DNA of 31,404 nt from a virus: the IMG/VR virus record IMGVR_UViG_3300032893_000219, positions 1-31,404 of that record; one strand, given 5' to 3'. This document shows positions 3,856 to 18,252 of this stretch, piece after piece (positions within the stretch are counted from its first letter, which is position 1; every line of letters starts with the position of its first letter). Position numbers and translations under genes: made by a program. The notes beneath the pieces are model-generated. The model was not told the DNA's origin, made no database searches, and worked only from the letters and a program-made list of their open reading frames with translations.

Positions 3856-4157
3856 CGACCTCGACGCCGCTGCCGCGCTTGATGACCGAGGCCGACGTGG
3901 CCCAGTATCTCGGCGTCCACCCCGAGACGGTCGCCAGGGAGCGCCGCCGGGGCCGGCTGCCCTGGCGGAAGATCGGGGGCCTGATTCGCTTCACGGCCAA
4001 CGACGTGCAGGAGTACCTGGAGCGATGCGCTACTACCTCAAAGACCGAGGCGGCGTCTGGTACATCTGCTGGACCGAGCGGGGCATTCCCGGACGCCTCA
4101 GCACTCGCCTGCGAGATCGCGGGCAGGCGGAGCTCGCGCTCGCCCGTCACGTCCTGA
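3852..4157 (+). CDS. xis: Excisionase-like helix-turn-helix protein
   Basis: This is 101 residues from a GTG start overlapping the preceding stop (GTGA). Residues 10-57 form a MerR/excisionase-type winged HTH (HTH_17): MTEADVAQYLGVHPETVARE, then RRRGRLPWRKIGGLIRF, then a helix TANDVQEYLER. Such proteins bind bent att DNA and direct integrase towards excision; Xis fits its place directly before int. Residues after about 60 are Ala/Ser/Thr-rich and look like a by-product of the reading frame, because this part (4025-4157) overlaps the integrase start by 133 bases in another frame. The HTH domain alone is probably the functional part. A transcription-regulator role is the alternative. Confidence 0.8.
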   Translation: MTTSTPLPRLMTEADVAQYLGVHPETVARERRRGRLPWRKIGGLIRFTANDVQEYLERCATTSKTEAASGTSAGPSGAFPDASALACEIAGRRSSRSPVTS

Positions 4158-5245
4158 TCCATGGGAACCCGCGCCACCAGGCGGCGGAGGCCGTCACCGT
4201 TCAGTCGGTCGTGTTGCGCTACTGGCAGCACCACGGCCGCAACATCGCGAGTCGCGACAGCGTGACTGCAGCCCTCAAGGCCGTGAATACCTACCTCGAG
4301 CGCGTTTCGGTCGCCGACTTCGGCCTGACGCGGCAGGAGGCCTTCATCCGCGCGCTGCGATCGGACGGCCTGGCCTCGAGCACGATCAAGCGCTGGATGG
4401 GGATCGTCGGAACGGCGCTGCGCTGGGCGCACGCGCGCCAGGAGGTCGTCGAGATCCCGCCGATGGTCGCGGTGAAGTCGGCGAACGAGGAAGGCGAGCG
4501 CCCGGCGACCGTCGAGGAGCTTCGGGCCCTCTGCGGCGCCTGCCTCCACGAGCATCAGCGGCGCTTCCTACTCCTGATGATCGGGACGGCCGCTCGGCCG
4601 ATCTCCGTCCTCGAGCTCGACTGGTCCCGCATGGATTTCGAGTCCGGGACGATCGCCCAGTCGGTGCCCGGGGTCGACCACGGGAAAAAGCGTCGGCCGA
4701 GGGTGCCCATGGCGGCGAGCGTGCGGAGGTATTTCGAGGGGAAGCGTTCGATCGGACCGGTGGTCCAGTGGAACGGAAAGCCCCTGGCAGGCCATAAGCG
4801 GCTCTATGCGGGGCTCGCGGAGCGGGCGGGCGTCGAGGTGGGGGCTTACGGGATCCGTAAGGCCTGCGCGACGTGGATGCGGCAGGAGGGCGTCCCGGAA
4901 TGGGACGTCCTGGGGATGTTGGGGCACCGGGCCGGCAGCTCGCAGACCGAGCGCTATGCCCACTGGCGCCCGGAATTCATGAGGGCCGCGGCGGAGTCAC
5001 TCGAGCGCCTGATCCGCGCGGTGGACCCGCCTTGGATGGTGGGCGCTGCTGGGATCGAACCAGCGACCCCCACGATGTCAACGTGGTGCTCTACCGCTGA
5101 GCTAAGCGCCCGGACTGGCAAGGGGCTTAACAGCGCGGCAGCTGTGGCCCTTCAAAATCAGGCGCTTAGGGAGGCGAGCGACTACCATGTCAAGGACGAG
5201 GCCCAGCCCATTATTCTGCCACTTACGGCTGCAAATGACGACTAG
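4025..5245 (+). CDS. int: Tyrosine recombinase (phage integrase)
   Basis: This 406-residue site-specific recombinase would join attP and attB. An arm-binding-like N-terminus (MRYYLKDRGGVWYICWTERG) supports this start. A core-binding helical domain spans about residues 55-150 and the catalytic domain about 160-335. Visible catalytic residues are Arg191 (AARPISVLELDW), a lysine at 221 or 222 (DHGKKRR), Arg278 in YGIRKACATW, His301 in LGHRAG and the nucleophile Tyr311 in TERYAHWRPE. The first position of the HxxR box is Tyr275 instead of His. Residues 338-363 are simply the complement of the tRNA-Val gene (the familiar GAAGIEPATP signature), and 43 more residues follow, so everything past about 335 is probably dispensable and would change on integration. 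Confidence 0.95.
   Translation: MRYYLKDRGGVWYICWTERGIPGRLSTRLRDRGQAELALARHVLIHGNPRHQAAEAVTVQSVVLRYWQHHGRNIASRDSVTAALKAVNTYLERVSVADFGLTRQEAFIRALRSDGLASSTIKRWMGIVGTALRWAHARQEVVEIPPMVAVKSANEEGERPATVEELRALCGACLHEHQRRFLLLMIGTAARPISVLELDWSRMDFESGTIAQSVPGVDHGKKRRPRVPMAASVRRYFEGKRSIGPVVQWNGKPLAGHKRLYAGLAERAGVEVGAYGIRKACATWMRQEGVPEWDVLGMLGHRAGSSQTERYAHWRPEFMRAAAESLERLIRAVDPPWMVGAAGIEPATPTMSTWCSTAELSARTGKGLNSAAAVALQNQALREASDYHVKDEAQPIILPLTAANDD
5037..5111 (-). tRNA. tRNA-Val(GAC), complete, antisense inside the integrase 3' end
   Basis: The reverse complement folds into a perfect 75-nt cloverleaf including an encoded CCA. It has a 7-bp acceptor stem (GGGCGCT with AGCGCCC), a 4-bp D stem (GCTC with GAGC), a 5-bp anticodon stem (CCACG with CGTGG) around loop TTGACAT, a 5-nt variable region and a 5-bp T stem (GCTGG with CCAGC) around TTCGATC, then discriminator A. 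The anticodon GAC reads valine GUC/GUU codons. Integrases often target tRNA genes, and this one lies where attP should be. Unusually the whole gene is present and undamaged, not only the 3' half, so it could be an active phage-borne tRNA as well as the crossover region. Confidence 0.95.
5112..5155 (-). promoter_or_regulatory. Possible sigma-70 promoter of the tRNA-Val gene
   Basis: On the minus strand TTGAAG (5155-5150) and TGTTAA (5132-5127) are separated by exactly 17 bases. The -10 element ends 15 bases before the first base of the tRNA. Four of six -35 positions and three of six -10 positions match consensus, so the match is moderate. One inverted copy of the ACTTGCCAG repeat (5114-5122) lies between the -10 and the tRNA. 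Confidence 0.35.
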
Positions 5246-9809: not shown

Positions 9810-12752
9810 TTAGGGTCCGAAGACCTGCTGGAAAATGTAGTCGGCTTGCAGGCTTCCGTTCGAGTCGAAAGTGAGGCCGCCCGCCTGGACGGAGGCGCCG
9901 GAGCTCGTGAAGTCGACCGGCGTCGACTCGGCGACCGTCTCGCCCTGGGAGACCGCGACGATCTTCTGCGCCTTCCCGACGAGGCTCGGCGCAAGCGGGC
10001 AGCGCAGGATGCCGGGCGCGCTCATGAGCACCACCCGGTCCTCGGCGCCGCTCGAGTTTTCATGCGCCGAGGTGCCGAAGAGGCCGCGGGCGTAGACGTT
10101 CAGCGTCCAATAGCCGCCGCTCAGAGTCGCGGTGTCGAACTGCAGGAGCTCCCACCGGCCCTGGGCACCGACCGCGATCAGGTTGGCGCCGGCGGCAAGC
10201 TGGTCGGTGGTGGCCGATGAGAAGGTGCCCGACTGCAGCGCGACCGTCAGGGTCGTCGAGGTTGAGTCGAGCGAGGACTCGAGCGTGCCCATGGTCGCCG
10301 CATCGGGCGTGCTCGCGAGGTTCTCCCAGGTGCTCCCGCCGTCCCAGCTGCGGAAGACCGTGTAGCCCTTCCAGGCCGGCAGGTAGCCGCGGCCGGCGAC
10401 GTAGAAACCCGCGTCGTTGTCCTGGGATCGAACCGCCGGGATGTCCAGCACCACGAAGTCGGTGGGGCCGATCAGCCAGGCGGCGAGCAGGCTGTTTGCG
10501 TAACTGAAGAGCGAGCCGACCGTGGCGTAAGAGGTCAGGACGCCCGGGTCGTCGCCGCAGGCGGACATCGTGAGGGTCGACGGCCATGCGAAATCGGCCT
10601 TCTTGATCCGCACGCGCTGCGTCACCCCGTCGACCGGCACCTCGATGCAGTCGGTGGGCTCGAGCAGCAGCGACTTCAGCGGGAGGATGAAGCTGTAACT
10701 GTTGCGGCTTCGCCACGCGTCATAGAGCTGGATCTCGGCGAGCCGGAGCGCCGCCTGGTCCTGCATCGAGACCGGGAGGTCGATCGTTACCGTATTGAAC
10801 GCCGTGGTCGTGACCCGGTCCGCGCTCTGCTGCCCGGCCTGGTAGTCGAGAGCCGGCGATGCGTACTTAATCCACAGGAGACGCGGCAGGTCCACGTCCT
10901 GCGCGCGCTGCGGCTTCATGGCGGATGGCCGCTGGTCGGTCGACAGGTAGGCGCCCAGGTCGTCGGAGGTGAGCGTGGCGACCACCGAGCCGCCCCTGGG
11001 CACAAATTTGAGCTTCTCCTGGCTCTCGACCGCCTCGAAGAGTCCGAACGACATCAGCGGCAGCAGCGCCGAGCGCCCCGGCATCACGTTCGTCAGTGCA
11101 TACCCGTCGCAGGTCCCGGAGATCGCAGACAGGTCGTAGTTCGCCGAGGTGATCCCCGAGCGCTGCAGGATGTCGGCCACGATGTCGGCGACGTTGACCG
11201 GATTGACGTCGTAGGCGCCCGGGCCGCTCGCGCCCACCCACGCCCAGGACTGCACCACAGGGTACTCAACGTTATAGGTGTACCCGGCCGGCATGTAGCC
11301 GAGCGCGACCGCATCGGCGTATTCCTGCTCCCAGTAAATCTGACTCGAGTAATTCGGGTCGTCACTTCGCAGGCAGGGATTCAACGGGTACTGGGTGACC
11401 GTGCCGGTGTAATCCGCGCCCGATTGCCGATAGGGTGCGAGGACCTTGTACGTGTGGCTGGTGTCGTAGGTCCAGGTCTGCGCGCGGAGGATCTCCCCCG
11501 TGGCCTGGAAGAAAAGCGCGTCGATCGCGGAAATCTGCACGGCTCCGGCGCCGGCCGCACTGGGGGGCGCCTGCGGTTGCCGCTTGATCGCGATCTGGGT
11601 GCAGGTCCACCGCTTTTCGTCATAAAACGGCGGCGGCGTGAGCCCGCTCTGGTCGGGCAGAATGGCACTCGTCCATAGGGGATCGGTCGAGAGATAGCGC
11701 CACTGCACAATCTCGCCGCCCCAATGGTAGCTGTAGGCGCTTCCGATGCGATCGCAGAAGAAGAATGGCCCCACCCCGTCGTCGCCGTTCCCGGCTTGCA
11801 GGCGCGTGATCGTCGGCGCGCTCGGCACGTTCAGGAAGACGAACGCCGCGACGTTCTCGCCATAGAACTGCTGCTGCAGCGGATAGGAAAAATGCGGATT
11901 GACCGTGTCGAAATAGCTCGAGGACGACCATGCGTAGATGTAGTCTTTGACCCCGCAGCCGGCGAGCGCCGTGGCCCAGGTGTCATTGATCGCCGTCCCG
12001 GCCGAGTCGTAGGTGTAGCTTCCGACCGAGAGCCTCGGGTCTGAGCCGTTTTTCCATGGGTACAGCACCGAATTCGAGAAGTCGCCGAGGTCCGGCGAGC
12101 CCGAGGTGTAGACCTCGAACTGCATCGACGGCATCCGGTTCGCGTAGTCGGTCAGGTTCATGTCGGTAAAGACGACATACGACAGGTCGAGATAGGCCGG
12201 CACGTTGCCAACGCCCTTGAAGGTCTCGATGGTCGGGTCCGGCGTCGTCTGCAGGCCCTTGTAAACCGTCATGATCGAATCGAGCTTGTCGCTCGCCGCG
12301 ATCCGGGCCTTGAACGCGCGCCATGTCTCGTTTGGTTGCTGCGGCCGGCGGTCGTAGATGACCTTGCCGTTCGCCCAGATGCGCAGAATGCCTTCGATCA
12401 CGTTGGCGCAGAGCCCGACCGCGACCGACTGGGTGTAGGTGTAGTACTTCTGCTGCGCGCCGCCCTTGCCGCCCTGGGACTGCGTGTGCTGGTGCTCTTT
12501 CAGGTCAGAGGCCCAGAGGACATTGCCCGAGATGGCGTAGGTGCCATAGACGATGGGGATCGGAGCGCCGAGCTCCGAGGTTTGCGCCTTCAGATCCTTG
12601 AGGCGGGGCCCGGGCGGGAGCTGGGTCGGGAAGATGAACGAACCGGCACCGACGCCGATCTCGAACCCCCACATCGCGCCGGTCGGGCCGCCATAGATGA
12701 AGCCGATCGCACCGCCAATGATGCCGAGCGCGGCTTGTCCTGGGTTACTCAT
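9810..12752 (-). CDS. Large tail tip/hub protein, gpJ/GTA gp15-like
   Basis: This is a 980-residue tail protein. The Gly-rich N-terminus (residues 1-45) and the LKDLKAQTSELGAPIPIVYG segment are typical of the family of phage tail hub proteins found after NlpC/P60 genes. The region of about 500-770 (including SALLPLMSFGLFEAVESQEK and LLEPTDCIEVPVDGVTQRVR) matches the conserved Phage-tail_3/gpJ-like core as I know it. The C-terminal 200 residues are beta-rich. It would close the tail tube and help contact the host. It is shorter than the roughly 1300-residue GTA gp15 and shows no clear TIM-barrel region. The start overlaps the NlpC/P60 gene by eight bases. Confidence 0.88.
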   Translation of the reverse strand: MSNPGQAALGIIGGAIGFIYGGPTGAMWGFEIGVGAGSFIFPTQLPPGPRLKDLKAQTSELGAPIPIVYGTYAISGNVLWASDLKEHQHTQSQGGKGGAQQKYYTYTQSVAVGLCANVIEGILRIWANGKVIYDRRPQQPNETWRAFKARIAASDKLDSIMTVYKGLQTTPDPTIETFKGVGNVPAYLDLSYVVFTDMNLTDYANRMPSMQFEVYTSGSPDLGDFSNSVLYPWKNGSDPRLSVGSYTYDSAGTAINDTWATALAGCGVKDYIYAWSSSSYFDTVNPHFSYPLQQQFYGENVAAFVFLNVPSAPTITRLQAGNGDDGVGPFFFCDRIGSAYSYHWGGEIVQWRYLSTDPLWTSAILPDQSGLTPPPFYDEKRWTCTQIAIKRQPQAPPSAAGAGAVQISAIDALFFQATGEILRAQTWTYDTSHTYKVLAPYRQSGADYTGTVTQYPLNPCLRSDDPNYSSQIYWEQEYADAVALGYMPAGYTYNVEYPVVQSWAWVGASGPGAYDVNPVNVADIVADILQRSGITSANYDLSAISGTCDGYALTNVMPGRSALLPLMSFGLFEAVESQEKLKFVPRGGSVVATLTSDDLGAYLSTDQRPSAMKPQRAQDVDLPRLLWIKYASPALDYQAGQQSADRVTTTAFNTVTIDLPVSMQDQAALRLAEIQLYDAWRSRNSYSFILPLKSLLLEPTDCIEVPVDGVTQRVRIKKADFAWPSTLTMSACGDDPGVLTSYATVGSLFSYANSLLAAWLIGPTDFVVLDIPAVRSQDNDAGFYVAGRGYLPAWKGYTVFRSWDGGSTWENLASTPDAATMGTLESSLDSTSTTLTVALQSGTFSSATTDQLAAGANLIAVGAQGRWELLQFDTATLSGGYWTLNVYARGLFGTSAHENSSGAEDRVVLMSAPGILRCPLAPSLVGKAQKIVAVSQGETVAESTPVDFTSSGASVQAGGLTFDSNGSLQADYIFQQVFGP

Positions 12753-13161
12753 ACTTGAGCCCCGGCAGGCGCCAGATGCTATGCGTGAGGCGGACCCATC
12801 GCCCGCGGTAGCCGTGCTCGATCACGCGGCCGACGTTTTCGTAGGAGTGGATCATCGTCTCGCCGGTGCAAATGGCCACGTGCGCGGCCTCGCGCGCCCA
12901 GGCGACGACGAGGAGCGTGCCGGGCTCGGCGACCTCCACGCGCGTGCACAATGAGGTGATCCCGGCGTCGAGGATGCCGTTCGCCGGCATGCGCCCGTAG
13001 ACGGGGAGCGCGAAGTCCTCCGGCAGGAGGCCTCGGGCCCGACAGACCGACACGACCAGGCCGATGCAATCGACCCCGTCCCAGTTGCTGCCCTGGTGCA
13101 GGAATGGGCGCCCAATCCACCGACGGGCCTCGGCAATGAACGCGGACACCTCGGGCGTCAT
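12745..13161 (-). CDS. NlpC/P60 family cysteine peptidase, tail tip
   Basis: This 138-residue protein has an NlpC/P60 fold. The catalytic Cys32 lies in GVDCIGLV after the typical WIGRPFLHQGSNWDG lead-in, and His94 lies in AREAAHVAIC. A third polar residue follows in the MIHSYENVGRVIEHGY part. In siphophages and in RcGTA (gp14) this peptidase sits at the tail tip and can open peptidoglycan crosslinks during DNA entry. It sits between the DUF2163 and hub genes, as expected. The gene overlaps both neighbours (ATGA at its start, eight bases at its end). The length is standard for the phage version, which lacks extra domains. Confidence 0.93.
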   Translation of the reverse strand: MTPEVSAFIAEARRWIGRPFLHQGSNWDGVDCIGLVVSVCRARGLLPEDFALPVYGRMPANGILDAGITSLCTRVEVAEPGTLLVVAWAREAAHVAICTGETMIHSYENVGRVIEHGYRGRWVRLTHSIWRLPGLKYE

Positions 13162-14042
13162 ACCGGGCCCGCCCCCGTGGGGCCTGCGATAAGGCTATTC
13201 ACGGTCGGCGTGAAGACGCCGAGGCCGCGGAACCGGTAGACGTTGCTGAAGGTGTCCCGGCAGGTCCCGATCTGCTTGTCGCAGCCCTGCTTGATGATGA
13301 AGGCATCCGCAACGGTCACGACGTTCGGGAAGGGCTCGAACAGCTCGATCTGATTCGTGAGGGACCCGAGCTTGATCTCGCGGGTGTACCCGGAATTCGC
13401 CCCGCTCGTGAACTTGAGCGAGCCGTGGGTGAACTGCGCCGCCGGGGAGGCCGAGCAGGTGATGGTAACGACGCGATCACTGACGACGCTCGAGATGGCC
13501 CCGGTAAAGGTCCGGGAGGTCATGTCGACACCGCAACGGGTGTCGCCTAAGTCGGCGTCGCAGGTCGCGGAATAGGTGCGGATGATCGGCTGCGTGAGGC
13601 GCTGCGCCAGGCCGCGGAGCTCGGCCGTGAACTGACCCTCGGCCGTCCGGCTGATGTTGCCGAGCGTCCCGAAGCGCAGCACGAGCTGGCCGTCGCTCGG
13701 CGAGGCCCAGTTGACCGCGAAAAGGACGCACTGGGCATTGTCGAAGAGCCCGGCCTCAATGTCGGCCGCCGACAGGCCGAGCACGCTCACGATCGGGAGG
13801 GTCGACCCCGCGACCTCGAGATTGTCGACCGACAGGTCGTTGCCCGAGACGATGTTGCTGCCGCTGATGCCGGAGGCGGCCTTGTAGGTGCCGGCGTAGG
13901 CCCCGCTCGGGACCACGATGTCGAAGTCCGCGCTCGTCCCGAGGATGCTTGTCCCGTCGTTGCGGGTGATGTTCCAGCAGAGCGCCAGCGTCGTGACCGG
14001 CTGGGCGATGTGGTTGGCGAGCGCCGTCGGGACCGACTTCAC
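13158..14042 (-). CDS. DUF2163/BR0599-type tail hub protein (GTA gp13-like)
   Basis: This 294-residue protein has an N-terminal DUF2163 domain (about 1-160; ALANHIAQPVTTLALCWNIT, and VSVLGLSAADIEAGLFDNA) and a C-terminal phage_BR0599 domain (about 165-290). Conserved cysteines are visible in CDADLGDTRCGVDM and in GCDKQIGTCRDTF, with the end motif YRFRGLGVF. The homologue in the Rhodobacter GTA forms the hub of the baseplate; as I recall, its clustered cysteines were modelled as holding iron-sulfur clusters. It sits between the DUF2460 and NlpC/P60 genes and shares four-base overlaps with both, so stoichiometric co-translation is likely. Confidence 0.9.
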   Translation of the reverse strand: MKSVPTALANHIAQPVTTLALCWNITRNDGTSILGTSADFDIVVPSGAYAGTYKAASGISGSNIVSGNDLSVDNLEVAGSTLPIVSVLGLSAADIEAGLFDNAQCVLFAVNWASPSDGQLVLRFGTLGNISRTAEGQFTAELRGLAQRLTQPIIRTYSATCDADLGDTRCGVDMTSRTFTGAISSVVSDRVVTITCSASPAAQFTHGSLKFTSGANSGYTREIKLGSLTNQIELFEPFPNVVTVADAFIIKQGCDKQIGTCRDTFSNVYRFRGLGVFTPTVNSLIAGPTGAGPV

Positions 14043-14677
14043 AGGCGGATCTCGGTGAGCGTGAAGCTAACCGACTGCATTCCGTGCTCGACCTGCTGGG
14101 CCGGAAACGTCGAGTCGAACCGCACCGGGACGTCGAACTGCCCGCCCCATGTCATCGCGCCGGCCGGGGTGTAGAGCATCGTCACGATGCCGGTCGTGTA
14201 GTCGATCGTGTAATCGGTCGTTTCGGTCTTGAGCGTGCCACCGTCGGCGATCAGGATCGTTCCAGAGACCGGCTTTTTTATCGGCCGATCCTGCGTCTGC
14301 GAGCCCGCGGCGTAGCGCTTCGTGATCTGGTAGGTGTAGTGCGGCGAGGTGCCGAGCAGCACGAGCGGCTGGTCGGTCGAGGCCGGCGTCTGTGAGACGC
14401 GGCAGCTCTTGTAGTCGATCCAATCCTTGTATCTGAAGCCGATCGCGGAGCCGCCGACGGCGTGCCAGAACTCGAGCAGCTGCTGGATCTCGTCGTCGGC
14501 CCGGGGACCCGGCCCGACCGTAACCGTCACCTTCAGCAGCGGCAGCAGCCAGTTGCGGTTGCGGGTTTCCCAGCCGCCGGAGGTCGTGATCGTCGTCACG
14601 CTGTAATCGGGCTCGGAAATGAGCCCGAACTTCGGCGTCGCCGGAAAGCGCGGCGTCTCGATGAAGCTGGTCGTCAT
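14039..14677 (-). CDS. DUF2460 distal tail protein (GTA gp12-like)
   Basis: This 212-residue protein matches DUF2460. Recognisable blocks are FIETPRFPATPKFGLIS at the N-terminus, TSGGWETRNRNW, the helix QQLLEFWHAVGGSAIGFRYKDW (about 60-85) and the C-terminal strand block VPVRFDSTFPAQQVEHGM followed by SFTLTEIRL. The family forms the distal tail ring that links the tail tube to the hub. Its ATG overlaps the tape measure stop by one base (TGATG) and its stop overlaps the next start (ATGA). Length is normal for the family. Confidence 0.93.
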   Translation of the reverse strand: MTTSFIETPRFPATPKFGLISEPDYSVTTITTSGGWETRNRNWLLPLLKVTVTVGPGPRADDEIQQLLEFWHAVGGSAIGFRYKDWIDYKSCRVSQTPASTDQPLVLLGTSPHYTYQITKRYAAGSQTQDRPIKKPVSGTILIADGGTLKTETTDYTIDYTTGIVTMLYTPAGAMTWGGQFDVPVRFDSTFPAQQVEHGMQSVSFTLTEIRL

Positions 14678-16899
14678 CAGTTATTCCGCAGGTTTGCGCG
14701 GGAGACGCCCATCGCGGCCGTGGCGGCGATCTGCAGTTGCGTCGCCCGCGAGACGCTGCCTTGCGGCGCCTGGATCGTGAAGTAATTGTGAACCGTGGTC
14801 CCGCGGCTGACCGCGTAATCACTCGCCGACGGCAGGATCTGCCCATCGGACGATGGCACGAAGATTTCCGGCACGCCGCGCTCGCCGACGATCATCGGGA
14901 CACCGGCGTAAGCCGGACCGCCGACCGCGGCGCCACCGAGCGCCGTGCCGGTAGCCATCGCGTAGGGGTCCATCCCGCCGCCGCCTCCACCGAGGATGCT
15001 GCCCAAGATGCCTCCACCGCCGCCCACCTGGCCCATGAACCACTGCGCCAGCGGCTTCATGATCGTCTCTTGAATGGAGAGCCGCACCAGGTCGGCGATC
15101 ATCGAGTCGATCAGCGACCGGAAATTGAGCTTGCCGGTCATCACAAAATTCGTGAGCGCGTCCTCCACGCCCTTGAGCATCTTCGTCGTGATATCCTGGA
15201 AGGACTTTCCGATGTCGTTGATATTTTTGAGGTAATCGCTCGCCGCGCGCTGCATCCCGGCCTGCGGGGTGTTCGTGGCGCGCAGGATGCGGTCCTTCTC
15301 GAGGGCGTCGAGCTTGGCGAGCGCGTCGACATTGCCCTCGATCTCGAGCTTCGAGCGGAGCATCGCGTCCGCCTGGGCGATCTGCTCGCGGGTCGCACCC
15401 TCGGTGTCGCCGATGAGCAGCCGATACTGAACATCGAGGTCGGTCAGCTGCTTCGCGTATTCCTCGGAGGCCTTGCGGAGCTCCTCCACGGCCTTCGCCT
15501 GGTCGGCGGTCGCCTTGATCAGGTCCTGCGCCTTCCGCATCTGCGTCTCGGAGAGCGTCGCGATCATCTCCTGGCGCTTGTTGGCGTCCGTCTCGCGGGC
15601 GATCGCGCTCTCGACCGCCGCGATCTCCTGGTCGTAAATCTGCTGGGAATCGGCGAGCCGCTTGTCCAGGAGGGCGATCTTCTGGGCGCCGTAGTCGGAG
15701 AGCGAGACCAGGCTCAGCTTGTAGTCGTCGTCGAGCTTTTTGTCGGCCGTCTTCCAGAGCTCGTCCTCGAGCTTTAGTTGCTCGTTCAGCGCCTTGAGCT
15801 GCTCGGCGAGCTGCTGCTTGATGCGGTCGACGGGCGTGGTCGGATTGAAATTGAGGTTCTGCGTGCCACCACCCGTCTTTGGCTTCTCCGGATTCGGGTT
15901 GTATGACGGTCCGGCCCATATGGCATCGATCATCGCCTGCCCGGCAATGGCCGTTTTCTCGATCTCGGCCGTCCCCTTCTTGTATTCGTCGGCCGCGGCC
16001 GAAATGTTGCCATGGGCGAGCTGGCCGGCGACGTTGTAGAGCGATACAAGCCGCTCGCCAATGCTGCCGATGATCGTCGCCGCCGTCACCGCTCCCGTCG
16101 CGATGACTCGGAAGCCGATAGACACGATGGACGTGAAGGCCTCCACGGTATCCTTGTTTTTGACGAGGTCCGCGAACGCCTCCGTCAGGCCTTGCATCTG
16201 CGGCAGCAGCGGCAGAATCGCGTTCCGCCGCATCGTGTCGAACTCGATGCCCAGCTGCCGAATCTTCTGCTGGAACTTCTCCGCCTCCTCGGCCTGCTGA
16301 CCCGTGACCGTCGCGTTGAGCTCGCCGGTCTCCGCCAGCTGCTTGAGAAAGAGCGCCATCTCGGCGCCCGAGCGCCCGAAAAGCGCCATCTCGACGGCAT
16401 TCTTCGCGGTGCCATCCTTGAAGTCGTCGAGCCGCTTGGCGATCTCCTGCAGCATCGTCGCCGGGTCTTTGAGATGCCCGGCCGCGTCCGTGACCGAGAG
16501 CCCCAGCGCCTTGAAGGCCTGGGCGGCCGCTCCGGTCCCGTTCTGGGCTCCGGCCATGCTCTTCGAGAGCTTGTCGACCGCCCCGGCCACCTGGCCGAAG
16601 TCGGTGCCCGACAGAACCGCGACGTTGCGGAGTGCCGAGAGGCTTTCGACCGAGATACCGGTCTGCGCGGAGAGCTTCTCGAGCGAGGCGGCCGACTCGA
16701 TGCCTTTGTTCACGAACTCGACCATCTTGTCGATCGCGAATGCCGCGGCGAGGCCCTCGAGGGCGTGCTTTGCCCCTTCCACGGCCGACTCGACCTTGTC
16801 CATGGCCGATTCGGCAGTCTTCGCCGCCCGGTCCATGTCTGAGGTGAACTTCGCCATGTTCGCTTCGAGCGAGATGACGAGGCTGCCGATGGTTGCCAT
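14677..16899 (-). CDS. Tail tape measure protein
   Basis: This 740-residue protein sets tail length and is ejected ahead of DNA. The N-terminus (GSLVISLEANMAKFTSDMDR) is typical. A mainly helical region with hydrophobic patches follows (about 250-290), then a long coiled-coil-like part (about 345-540). The lambda tape measure C-terminal signature is present (VEDALTNFVMTGKLNFRSL, about 585-605), then a Gly-rich stretch and the MIVGERGVPEIFVP motif. At the usual 1.5 angstroms per residue the tail would be about 110 nm. The gene follows the G/GT chaperone pair and precedes DUF2460, the canonical siphophage order. The ribosome site is weak (AAAGAG). Confidence 0.95.
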   Translation of the reverse strand: MATIGSLVISLEANMAKFTSDMDRAAKTAESAMDKVESAVEGAKHALEGLAAAFAIDKMVEFVNKGIESAASLEKLSAQTGISVESLSALRNVAVLSGTDFGQVAGAVDKLSKSMAGAQNGTGAAAQAFKALGLSVTDAAGHLKDPATMLQEIAKRLDDFKDGTAKNAVEMALFGRSGAEMALFLKQLAETGELNATVTGQQAEEAEKFQQKIRQLGIEFDTMRRNAILPLLPQMQGLTEAFADLVKNKDTVEAFTSIVSIGFRVIATGAVTAATIIGSIGERLVSLYNVAGQLAHGNISAAADEYKKGTAEIEKTAIAGQAMIDAIWAGPSYNPNPEKPKTGGGTQNLNFNPTTPVDRIKQQLAEQLKALNEQLKLEDELWKTADKKLDDDYKLSLVSLSDYGAQKIALLDKRLADSQQIYDQEIAAVESAIARETDANKRQEMIATLSETQMRKAQDLIKATADQAKAVEELRKASEEYAKQLTDLDVQYRLLIGDTEGATREQIAQADAMLRSKLEIEGNVDALAKLDALEKDRILRATNTPQAGMQRAASDYLKNINDIGKSFQDITTKMLKGVEDALTNFVMTGKLNFRSLIDSMIADLVRLSIQETIMKPLAQWFMGQVGGGGGILGSILGGGGGGMDPYAMATGTALGGAAVGGPAYAGVPMIVGERGVPEIFVPSSDGQILPSASDYAVSRGTTVHNYFTIQAPQGSVSRATQLQIAATAAMGVSRANLRNN

Positions 16900-16901
16900 A
16901 G

Positions 16902-17602
16902 TTACTCTTTCTTGCCTAGCAGAGCCGCGAGCGCTCGGCTTTGAGCTTCGAGATCGATGATTTCGGCCGCCGGCTCGGCCTCCTCCGGCGGTTCGCGCAG
17001 CTCAGGCATGAAGTCCGCCGGGGTGAAGGCCTTTGAGTCCTTTCCGCGGTGAATGTTGCCGAGCGTCGCGCAGACCTGGCCGGCCCGGAAATCCGCCCGG
17101 AGCTCGGGCAGGCCCCGGAGGTTCGCATAGGCCCGCCACTCGGCGACCTGCCGGCTCGTAAGGACCGCCAGCAGGTCGTCGGGGTGGGCATATCCGAGCG
17201 CCAGACACAGGTCGAAGGCGAACTGGCGCTCGGGCCGGTCTCTTAGTTTTTTTCCAGCTCCTCGACGTCCTGGGAGGACAGGCCGTTGAGCCGCTGGCAG
17301 GCACTAAACACGCGATCGAGGGCCGCGGCGCTCTTCGCGCCGAGGGCCGCGATCTCCGTGTCCTCGAACTCCCGCGCGCCCGTCTCGTCGACGATGCACA
17401 TTGCAACCAGCTTCGCGCGGATGTTGGCGAGGTCGACCTTTCGCTTTTTGCCTTCCCCGGTCGTGAGCGATGCCTCAAAGAGGTCCCGCTCCCGGCCGGT
17501 GAGGGTGCGCACGCGCACGGTGCCGCCCCACTCCGGGACGTCGATGTCCTCGGTGGCGAGGTCGCGCGCGTTGAGAATGTCCTGTTTCGTGAGAAGGCCC
17601 AT
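16902..17602 (-). CDS. Tail assembly chaperone GT-type fusion, made by -1 frameshift
   Basis: The second frame begins where the G-like gene ends and has no start of its own. If ribosomes slip back one base on A AAA AAC (17252-17246), reading continues from CTA at 17246 for 114 codons to TAA (16904-16902), giving a 233-residue fusion. The added part carries the T-domain pattern: LTSRQVAEWRAYANL, then GLPELRADFRAGQVCATLGN and FTPADFMPELREPP. In lambda the equivalent gpGT bridges tape measure and tail tube during assembly and is made at a few percent of gpG. The slippery site, an 11-bp stem after it and the recognisable product together make this a strong call. Confidence 0.9.
17194..17252 (-). 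promoter_or_regulatory. Programmed -1 ribosomal frameshift signal of the G/GT pair
   Basis: Slippery heptamer A AAA AAC in the zero frame at 17252-17246 is followed directly by the stop codon TAA. After a 12-base spacer comes a perfect 11-bp inverted repeat: CCGAGCGCCAG (17233-17223) and CTGGCGCTCGG (17204-17194) with an 18-base loop. A strong GC stem behind A AAA AAC is the textbook form of a stimulated -1 site. A pseudoknot between the loop and downstream sequence is possible but not evident by eye. Confidence 0.9.
17243..17602 (-). CDS. Tail assembly chaperone, gpG-like
   Basis: This 119-residue protein starts at ATG 17602 (MGLLTKQDIL) with AGGGG just upstream. The frame is open much further upstream, but that part is the shadow of the tail tube gene. 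The protein contains VPEWGGTVRVRTLTGRERD (about 22-40) and helical segments, a pattern common to siphophage tail chaperones that coat the tape measure protein before the tube forms around it. It ends with GAA AAA AAC TAA, so the last sense codons are themselves the slippery site for the longer GT form. It lies between tail tube and tape measure genes, exactly where G genes are found. Confidence 0.9.
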   Translation of the reverse strand: MGLLTKQDILNARDLATEDIDVPEWGGTVRVRTLTGRERDLFEASLTTGEGKKRKVDLANIRAKLVAMCIVDETGAREFEDTEIAALGAKSAAALDRVFSACQRLNGLSSQDVEELEKN

Positions 17603-17613
17603 GTATACCCCTA

Positions 17614-18252
17614 TCAGGACCAGGTGACGGCGCCGGTGACGCGCAGGTCGACCGCCCGCTTCAGCGGCTGGTCTACCGCGCCGGAGGCGCCGACCTTCTT
17701 GACGTAGGCGTTGAAGGTGGCGACCGCGTTGTTCGGCAGCGTGAACTTGAACTGCGCGAGCGCCTGCGAGCCCTGCTTCGACAGCAGCGCGAGTTGGCCG
17801 GCGTCGGTCGTGTCGAGGTCGAGCTCGAGCGTGACCTGGCCCATGTCGCGGAGCCCGATCAGGAACTCTTTCGCCGTCGAGTCGAGGTTCGTGACGTCCA
17901 CGTCGGCCGCCGAGCCGTCGAAGGCCGAGAAGGTCTTCACGTTGGCGATCTTCGTCCACGTGACCGGGGTCGCCGTGCCGCCCGAGGTGTAGGACGTGTA
18001 CCCGCTCGCGTCCACGCCCGACAGCGCGAAGGTGTTCGCGGTCGTGTATTGCACGACGTAGGTCCCGCCGTTCAGCTGCGTCATGCCGCCGACGCTGGCA
18101 ATGGTGACCACGTCGCCGCGGCTCAGGCCGTGGGCCGTTGCCGTCACGATGCAGGGGTTCGTGGCAGAAATGCCCGTGATGGATACCGGGCTCGAAGTCG
18201 AGGACGCGATTTTCAGCGTCGTCAACTGGGCAATGATCGCCGTGCTGGTCAT
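17614..18252 (-). CDS. Major tail tube protein with inserted FCCH-like domain
   Basis: This 212-residue protein forms the tail tube. The tube-protein pattern is split: residues 1-20 (IIAQLTTLKIASS) and about 97-212 (VTWTKIANVKTFSAFDGSAA, LDSTAKEFLIGLRDMGQVTL, FNAYVKKVG and the end LRVTGAVTW). Between them lies about 72 residues resembling an FCCH/E1-type beta domain (VTATAHGLSRGDVVTIASVG through SGYTSYTSGGT). Insertions of this kind would sit on the outside of the tube as small knobs. Without the insert the length is about 140 residues, normal for the family. A hairpin with a T-tract and AGGAG lie directly before the ATG, which fits strong expression. Confidence 0.88.
   Translation of the reverse strand: MTSTAIIAQLTTLKIASSTSSPVSITGISATNPCIVTATAHGLSRGDVVTIASVGGMTQLNGGTYVVQYTTANTFALSGVDASGYTSYTSGGTATPVTWTKIANVKTFSAFDGSAADVDVTNLDSTAKEFLIGLRDMGQVTLELDLDTTDAGQLALLSKQGSQALAQFKFTLPNNAVATFNAYVKKVGASGAVDQPLKRAVDLRVTGAVTWS

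Follow-up and report, generated by a model that had tools for sequence, protein, structure and literature searches.

The window, that is, the whole 31,404-nt stretch of DNA analysed here (IMG/VR virus record IMGVR_UViG_3300032893_000219), almost certainly contains a programmed −1 ribosomal frameshift of the phage lambda G/GT type. The site is an added member of the known G/GT programmed frameshifts, a device familiar from long-tailed phages, and it is regarded as an ordinary one because its sequence is intact and conserved. All of the sequence elements, the homology of T, the order of the genes and the conserved −1 relation were seen directly. The coordinates in the initial annotation were those of the plus strand; the genes are encoded on the minus strand, and a plus-strand reading of the region was dropped for that reason. 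The features of the region are given below, from upstream to downstream.

17614 to 18252, minus strand: gene for a lambda-like major tail (tail tube) protein, directly ahead of G (PF16460, 3.8e-13; PF08813, 4.7e-12; phrog_584, 6.1e-30)
17243 to 17602, minus strand: zero-frame gene for a G-like tail assembly chaperone of 119 aa, ending in GAA AAA AAC TAA
17246 to 17252, minus strand: slippery heptamer A AAA AAC, zero frame
17243 to 17245, minus strand: zero-frame stop codon TAA, abutting the heptamer
17223 to 17233, minus strand: 5' arm CCGAGCGCCAG of a perfect 11-bp stem, 12 nt past the heptamer
17194 to 17204, minus strand: 3' arm CTGGCGCTCGG of the same perfect 11-bp stem, behind an 18-nt loop
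16905 to 17246, minus strand: T-like extension of 114 codons, read in the −1 frame and lacking a usable start; its stop codon is at 16902 to 16904
14677 to 16899, minus strand: gene for the tape measure protein, directly after T (PF09718, 5.5e-20; phrog_339, 4.2e-33)

As shown in this list, G and T sit between the tail-tube and tape-measure genes, as they do in lambda. The G-like protein matches the tail assembly chaperone family phrog_344 of PHROG with an E-value of 4.2e-31, and no Pfam TAC family lies above the cut-off for it, the best being PF16459 with an E-value of 0.15. A T-like domain had been proposed in the 114-residue extension, and the HMM check bore this out, with matches to PF06223 (Phage_tail_T, lambda minor tail protein T; E = 1.5e-15, 57.8 bits against a cut-off of 25.9) and to phrog_337 (E = 1.1e-11); in the genome search, T was matched with an E-value of 2.8e-17.

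The G gene starts with ATG at 17602 and ends with TAA at 17245-17243, and the GAA AAA AAC TAA end, where the heptamer touches the stop codon, was found exactly as the initial annotation had described it, to the base. The same is true of the perfect 11-bp stem, its 18-base loop (17222-17205) and its spacer of 12 nt from the heptamer, and of the −1 frame of 114 codons, which opens with CTA at 17246 and closes at 16905. The heptamer lies in a GA7C tract, which has seven A's. The predicted GT fusion has 233 aa, and its junction reads E-K-N-L-R (EKN-LRD). The T frame contains a single ATG, GTG or TTG, namely an ATG as its codon 80 with 35 aa remaining, so that a gene finder based on start codons misses T, as had been anticipated; T without a start is a gene that standard annotation would lose. 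A +1 shift was also considered, and the +1 frame does open, yet the T match sits in the −1 frame.

We infer from these elements that slippage occurs with some efficiency, that the stem has a stimulatory role, and that the two proteins have the functions of their lambda counterparts. Most likely, two tRNAs undergo ordinary −1 slippage on the A AAA AAC heptamer, stimulated by the hairpin, and GT is the minority product. The majority of ribosomes would read G through to TAA and release the 119-aa chaperone, while a minority would slip back by one base on A AAA AAC (from AAA AAC to AAA AAA), probably aided by the downstream hairpin, and would go on as Leu-Arg into T to produce the GT fusion of 233 aa. 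If the proteins act as in lambda, G would form a coat on the tape measure protein and GT would bring in tail-tube subunits through its T part, in which case a fixed low GT:G ratio would be needed for tail assembly. The G/GT signal places this phage among the lambda-type tail builders.

The lambda frameshift model has been described, together with the requirement for a defined G:GT ratio (PMC5009743), and in an HK97-like cluster two tail-chaperone genes gave 6–7% frameshifting by experiment (PMC3711429). The window shares with lambda the order of tube protein, G, T and tape measure, the −1 shift at the end of G, a T domain that belongs to PF06223 in both, and a T without a start of its own. The heptamer is different: lambda has G_GGA_AAG, with Lys as the second codon, whereas the window has A_AAA_AAC, with Asn. 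In addition, the stop of the window abuts the heptamer, a hairpin lies downstream, and its G is recognized through phrog_344 and not through a Pfam TAC family. Homologous G and T genes, with T in the −1 frame and a heptamer at the end of G, are found in the Streptomyces phages Dubu (13/14) and phiSASD1 (35/35.1) and in the Rhodococcus phage Jflix2 (18/19). In the deposited genomes of these three cultured phages, which have actinobacterial hosts, a joined CDS of two pieces covers the G start. Their identity to the window is approximately 46% over G and T in Dubu and phiSASD1, and 53% over G alone in Jflix2. Unlike the window, they carry G_GGA_AAC or G_GGT_TTC and have no significant hairpin directly past the heptamer. 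By site and gene pair, the window can also be likened to the g-t genes of the haloarchaeal siphoviruses HCTV-1, HCTV-2 and HCTV-5, whose hosts are archaea and in which G_GGA_AAC and A_AAA_AAC sites occur in the same gene pair (PMC5009743).

Relatives were collected from IMG/VR by a scan with G, which gave 79 relatives (the first set), and by a profile scan and three more scans reseeded with other members, which gave more than 250 additional loci; a protein scan with T alone gave four loci, and one scan of genome contigs gave two. Every T match obtained in the first set lay in the −1 frame, apart from that of one relative. In the exception (L055, 2679-3357), the G and T matches share one continuous frame, which is either a natural in-frame fusion or an indel. 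The initial annotation had staked its reading on an open −1 frame conserved in relatives. Among 200 distinct held-out G-T junctions from IMG/VR, 172 have an in-frame slippery heptamer that leads into an open −1 frame, and each of these 172 extensions matches a T HMM that was built from the first set only, so the expected conservation is present. In the 28 held-out junctions without a canonical heptamer, T is in the −1 frame wherever it was matched, with one exception (L254), in which T is in the +1 frame relative to G; either +1 shifting or an indel may account for this locus. Six relatives (L163, L164, L165, L170, L206 and L234) have a G that ends in the non-canonical GGGGGAA followed by the stop (GGG GAA TAA/TGA/TAG in the zero frame), and T is still in the −1 frame.

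The substitutions in T follow the −1 frame as well. Counted at the first, second and third codon positions of that frame, they are 36/27/60 between the window and its nearest relative (L083) and 31/28/69 between the window and L091, and this excess at the third position shows that the −1 frame is translated.

The heptamers at 222 junctions were A AAA AAC (126), G GGA AAC (45), G GGA AAA (17), G GGT TTC (10), A AAA AAA (8) and others (16), and these differing sequences all lead into the same frame. AAC dominates as the second codon (171 of the 222 junctions), and none of the 222 heptamers ends in AAG, although the search pattern permitted it. AAG is the second codon most prone to shifting in E. 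coli, where A_AAA_AAC is much less shift-prone than A_AAA_AAG (PMC5009743), although the host here may be another one. The absence of AAG and the dominance of AAC may reflect the tRNA-Lys sets of the hosts; the dominance may come from hosts with a separate tRNA for AAG that would resist slipping on this codon. The weakness of the AAC site in E. coli, the marginal energy of the stem and the long spacer were the points counted against the frameshift reading.

Apart from this stem, the window has no perfect hairpin with 11 bp or more and a loop of 3–20. When the same peptide was re-encoded with the codon usage of the window, a perfect 11-bp stem appeared in 113 of 20,000 sequences (P ~0.006). The folding energy gave a weaker result: an equal or better energy was found in 408 of 5,000 re-encodings over 24 codons, and over 22 codons, with codon usage taken from the annotated genes, the stem has a z of −1.81 (p = 0.037), so that the overall P by energy is 0.04–0.08 beside ~0.006 for perfect pairing. 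Dinucleotide shuffles of 81 nt gave a z of −3.5 by a method that ignores the coding constraint. A z of −3.08, computed with codon usage from every long stop-free frame, was rejected, as this source is contaminated in GC-rich DNA and overrates the stem. By folding energy, the stem is marginally stronger than its peptide requires, which is suggestive but not compelling. In the relatives that combine an abutting stop with a strong hairpin, the modal spacer is 4–5 nt, and the 12 nt of the window are longer; several of the relatives (L057, L032 and L182) have stems that are stronger and better placed. The site had been put forward as a quantitative frameshift model on account of its clean form. The signal elements are indeed exact, but this valuation was overstated: the stem is modestly unusual once corrected for GC-rich coding, and with a spacer beyond the family mode, the window is not the cleanest model.

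Among the relatives of the first set, strong hairpins appeared to accompany stops that abut the heptamer. The stop classes were fixed before new loci were tested, as stops within 3 nt and stops at least 9 nt away (in practice at least 12 nt), with A runs of at least 8 set apart. The new loci were clustered at 70% identity. The first held-out sample, with four abutting clusters only, gave P = 0.21 and was then enlarged. In the enlarged held-out sample, with synonymous shuffles based on the codon usage of G, T and the longest frame at each locus, the mean z was −2.06 for 36 abutting clusters and −0.46 for 62 distant clusters (P = 3.5e-7); in all data it was −2.24 (51 clusters) and −0.47 (83 clusters), respectively. 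Relative to a control region further into T, the abutting class is clearly more structured (−2.24 versus −0.19, P = 2e-11), whereas the distant class shows no difference from its control region (−0.47 versus −0.39, P = 0.28). The contrast between the stop classes survived a switch of the codon-usage source. Among 24 path-disjoint pairs on the tree, 20 showed more structure in the abutting member (P = 0.0008). The window (z −1.81) and L083 (z +0.56), its nearest relative, form one such pair. A Shine-Dalgarno-like stimulator was also considered as a compensating element. Its strength upstream of the site is hardly above that of synonymous shuffles (window z −0.95) and shows no difference between the two stop classes (mean z −0.33 versus −0.52, P = 0.38), and it was rejected in this role.

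These results suggest that the phrog_344-like G family, which carries a VPEWGG motif, has two designs: a stop that abuts the heptamer with a selected hairpin just downstream, as in the window, or a stop 12–100 nt further on without a selected hairpin. The two designs interchange within clades, and the window and L083 differ in exactly this way. The hairpin may compensate for the abutting stop or act jointly with it, if such a stop lowers the yield of GT or moves the slippage to termination. With a distant stop, on the other hand, the overlap is read in two frames, which may leave less freedom to build a hairpin. Mainly because this reading by two-frame constraint remains, our confidence in the functional relation of stop and hairpin is evenly divided. 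In a limited literature search, no published report of the pattern was found; as a family-wide feature the relation looks new, and it is the part worth following. The family comparison is a natural experiment, in which the stop distance and the hairpin strength vary together over more than 130 sequence clusters, so that the effect of a stop touching the slip site on bacterial −1 frameshifting can be tested with simple reporters.

The position of the stop also bears on the step at which the ribosome slips. In a variant of the main explanation, which we consider a minority possibility of some weight, slippage is post-translocational, and the AAC codon in the P site slips while UAA occupies the A site. 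A ribosome waiting at the abutting stop would then be subject to competition by the release factor, which would set the ratio, and the hairpin would act at that step. The stop directly after the heptamer and the strong hairpins that accompany abutting stops throughout the family are consistent with this variant, as is the 12-nt spacer of the window, which would lie 9 nt beyond the A-site codon. However, the modal family spacer of 4–5 nt suits ordinary pre-translocation slippage, and the protein product is the same in both cases, so that the sequence does not distinguish them.

Transcriptional slippage, in which RNA polymerase would insert an extra A within the A7 run and some mRNAs would encode GT without any slip of the ribosome, is very improbable here, although the GA7C tract would be a place for it. 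Some relatives (L068, L069, L070-L072 and L074-L078) have runs of about eight to nine A's at the junction and no hairpin, and in these, transcriptional slippage possibly replaces ribosomal frameshifting. A run of seven A's is short for efficient transcriptional slippage in bacteria, for which a homopolymer of about nine or more A's, with neither heptamer nor hairpin needed, was taken as the mark. Moreover, other members of the family have the non-homopolymer heptamers GGGAAAC or GGGTTTC, at which slipping of RNA polymerase is not expected, and the abutting-stop class shows selection for a hairpin close to the heptamer.

An assembly or sequencing indel in the run of seven A's, which would make the stop an artefact and G and T one continuous or differently arranged frame, deserves still less credence. 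The window is a single virus contig and homopolymers are error-prone; nevertheless, the same −1 arrangement occurs in more than 200 distinct junctions and in isolate genomes, and the many relatives with GGGAAAC or GGGTTTC have no long homopolymer, by which this explanation is largely refuted. Translation of T by itself through re-initiation near the G stop, as might be supposed from relatives annotated with separate second genes (Rooney 21/22), is equally implausible, since the T frame has no ATG, GTG or TTG before codon 80 and in almost every relative the conserved T motif starts no more than a few codons away from the heptamer.

Outside this region, the window is a fragment of a siphophage genome that carries genes for terminase, portal, capsid and integrase (the last at 4025-5245) and baseplate genes resembling those of gene transfer agents. 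The baseplate genes lie at 9810-14677 on the minus strand, where the TIGR02218 hub match is above the cut-off and the TIGR02217 distal tail, NlpC and megatron-like matches are below it. The tail tube protein (17614-18252, minus strand) carries an insert at residues 37–97 that matches PF16190 (E1_FCCH, 3.6e-13), a model named after the ubiquitin-activating enzyme, and this insert adjoins the tail tube fold.
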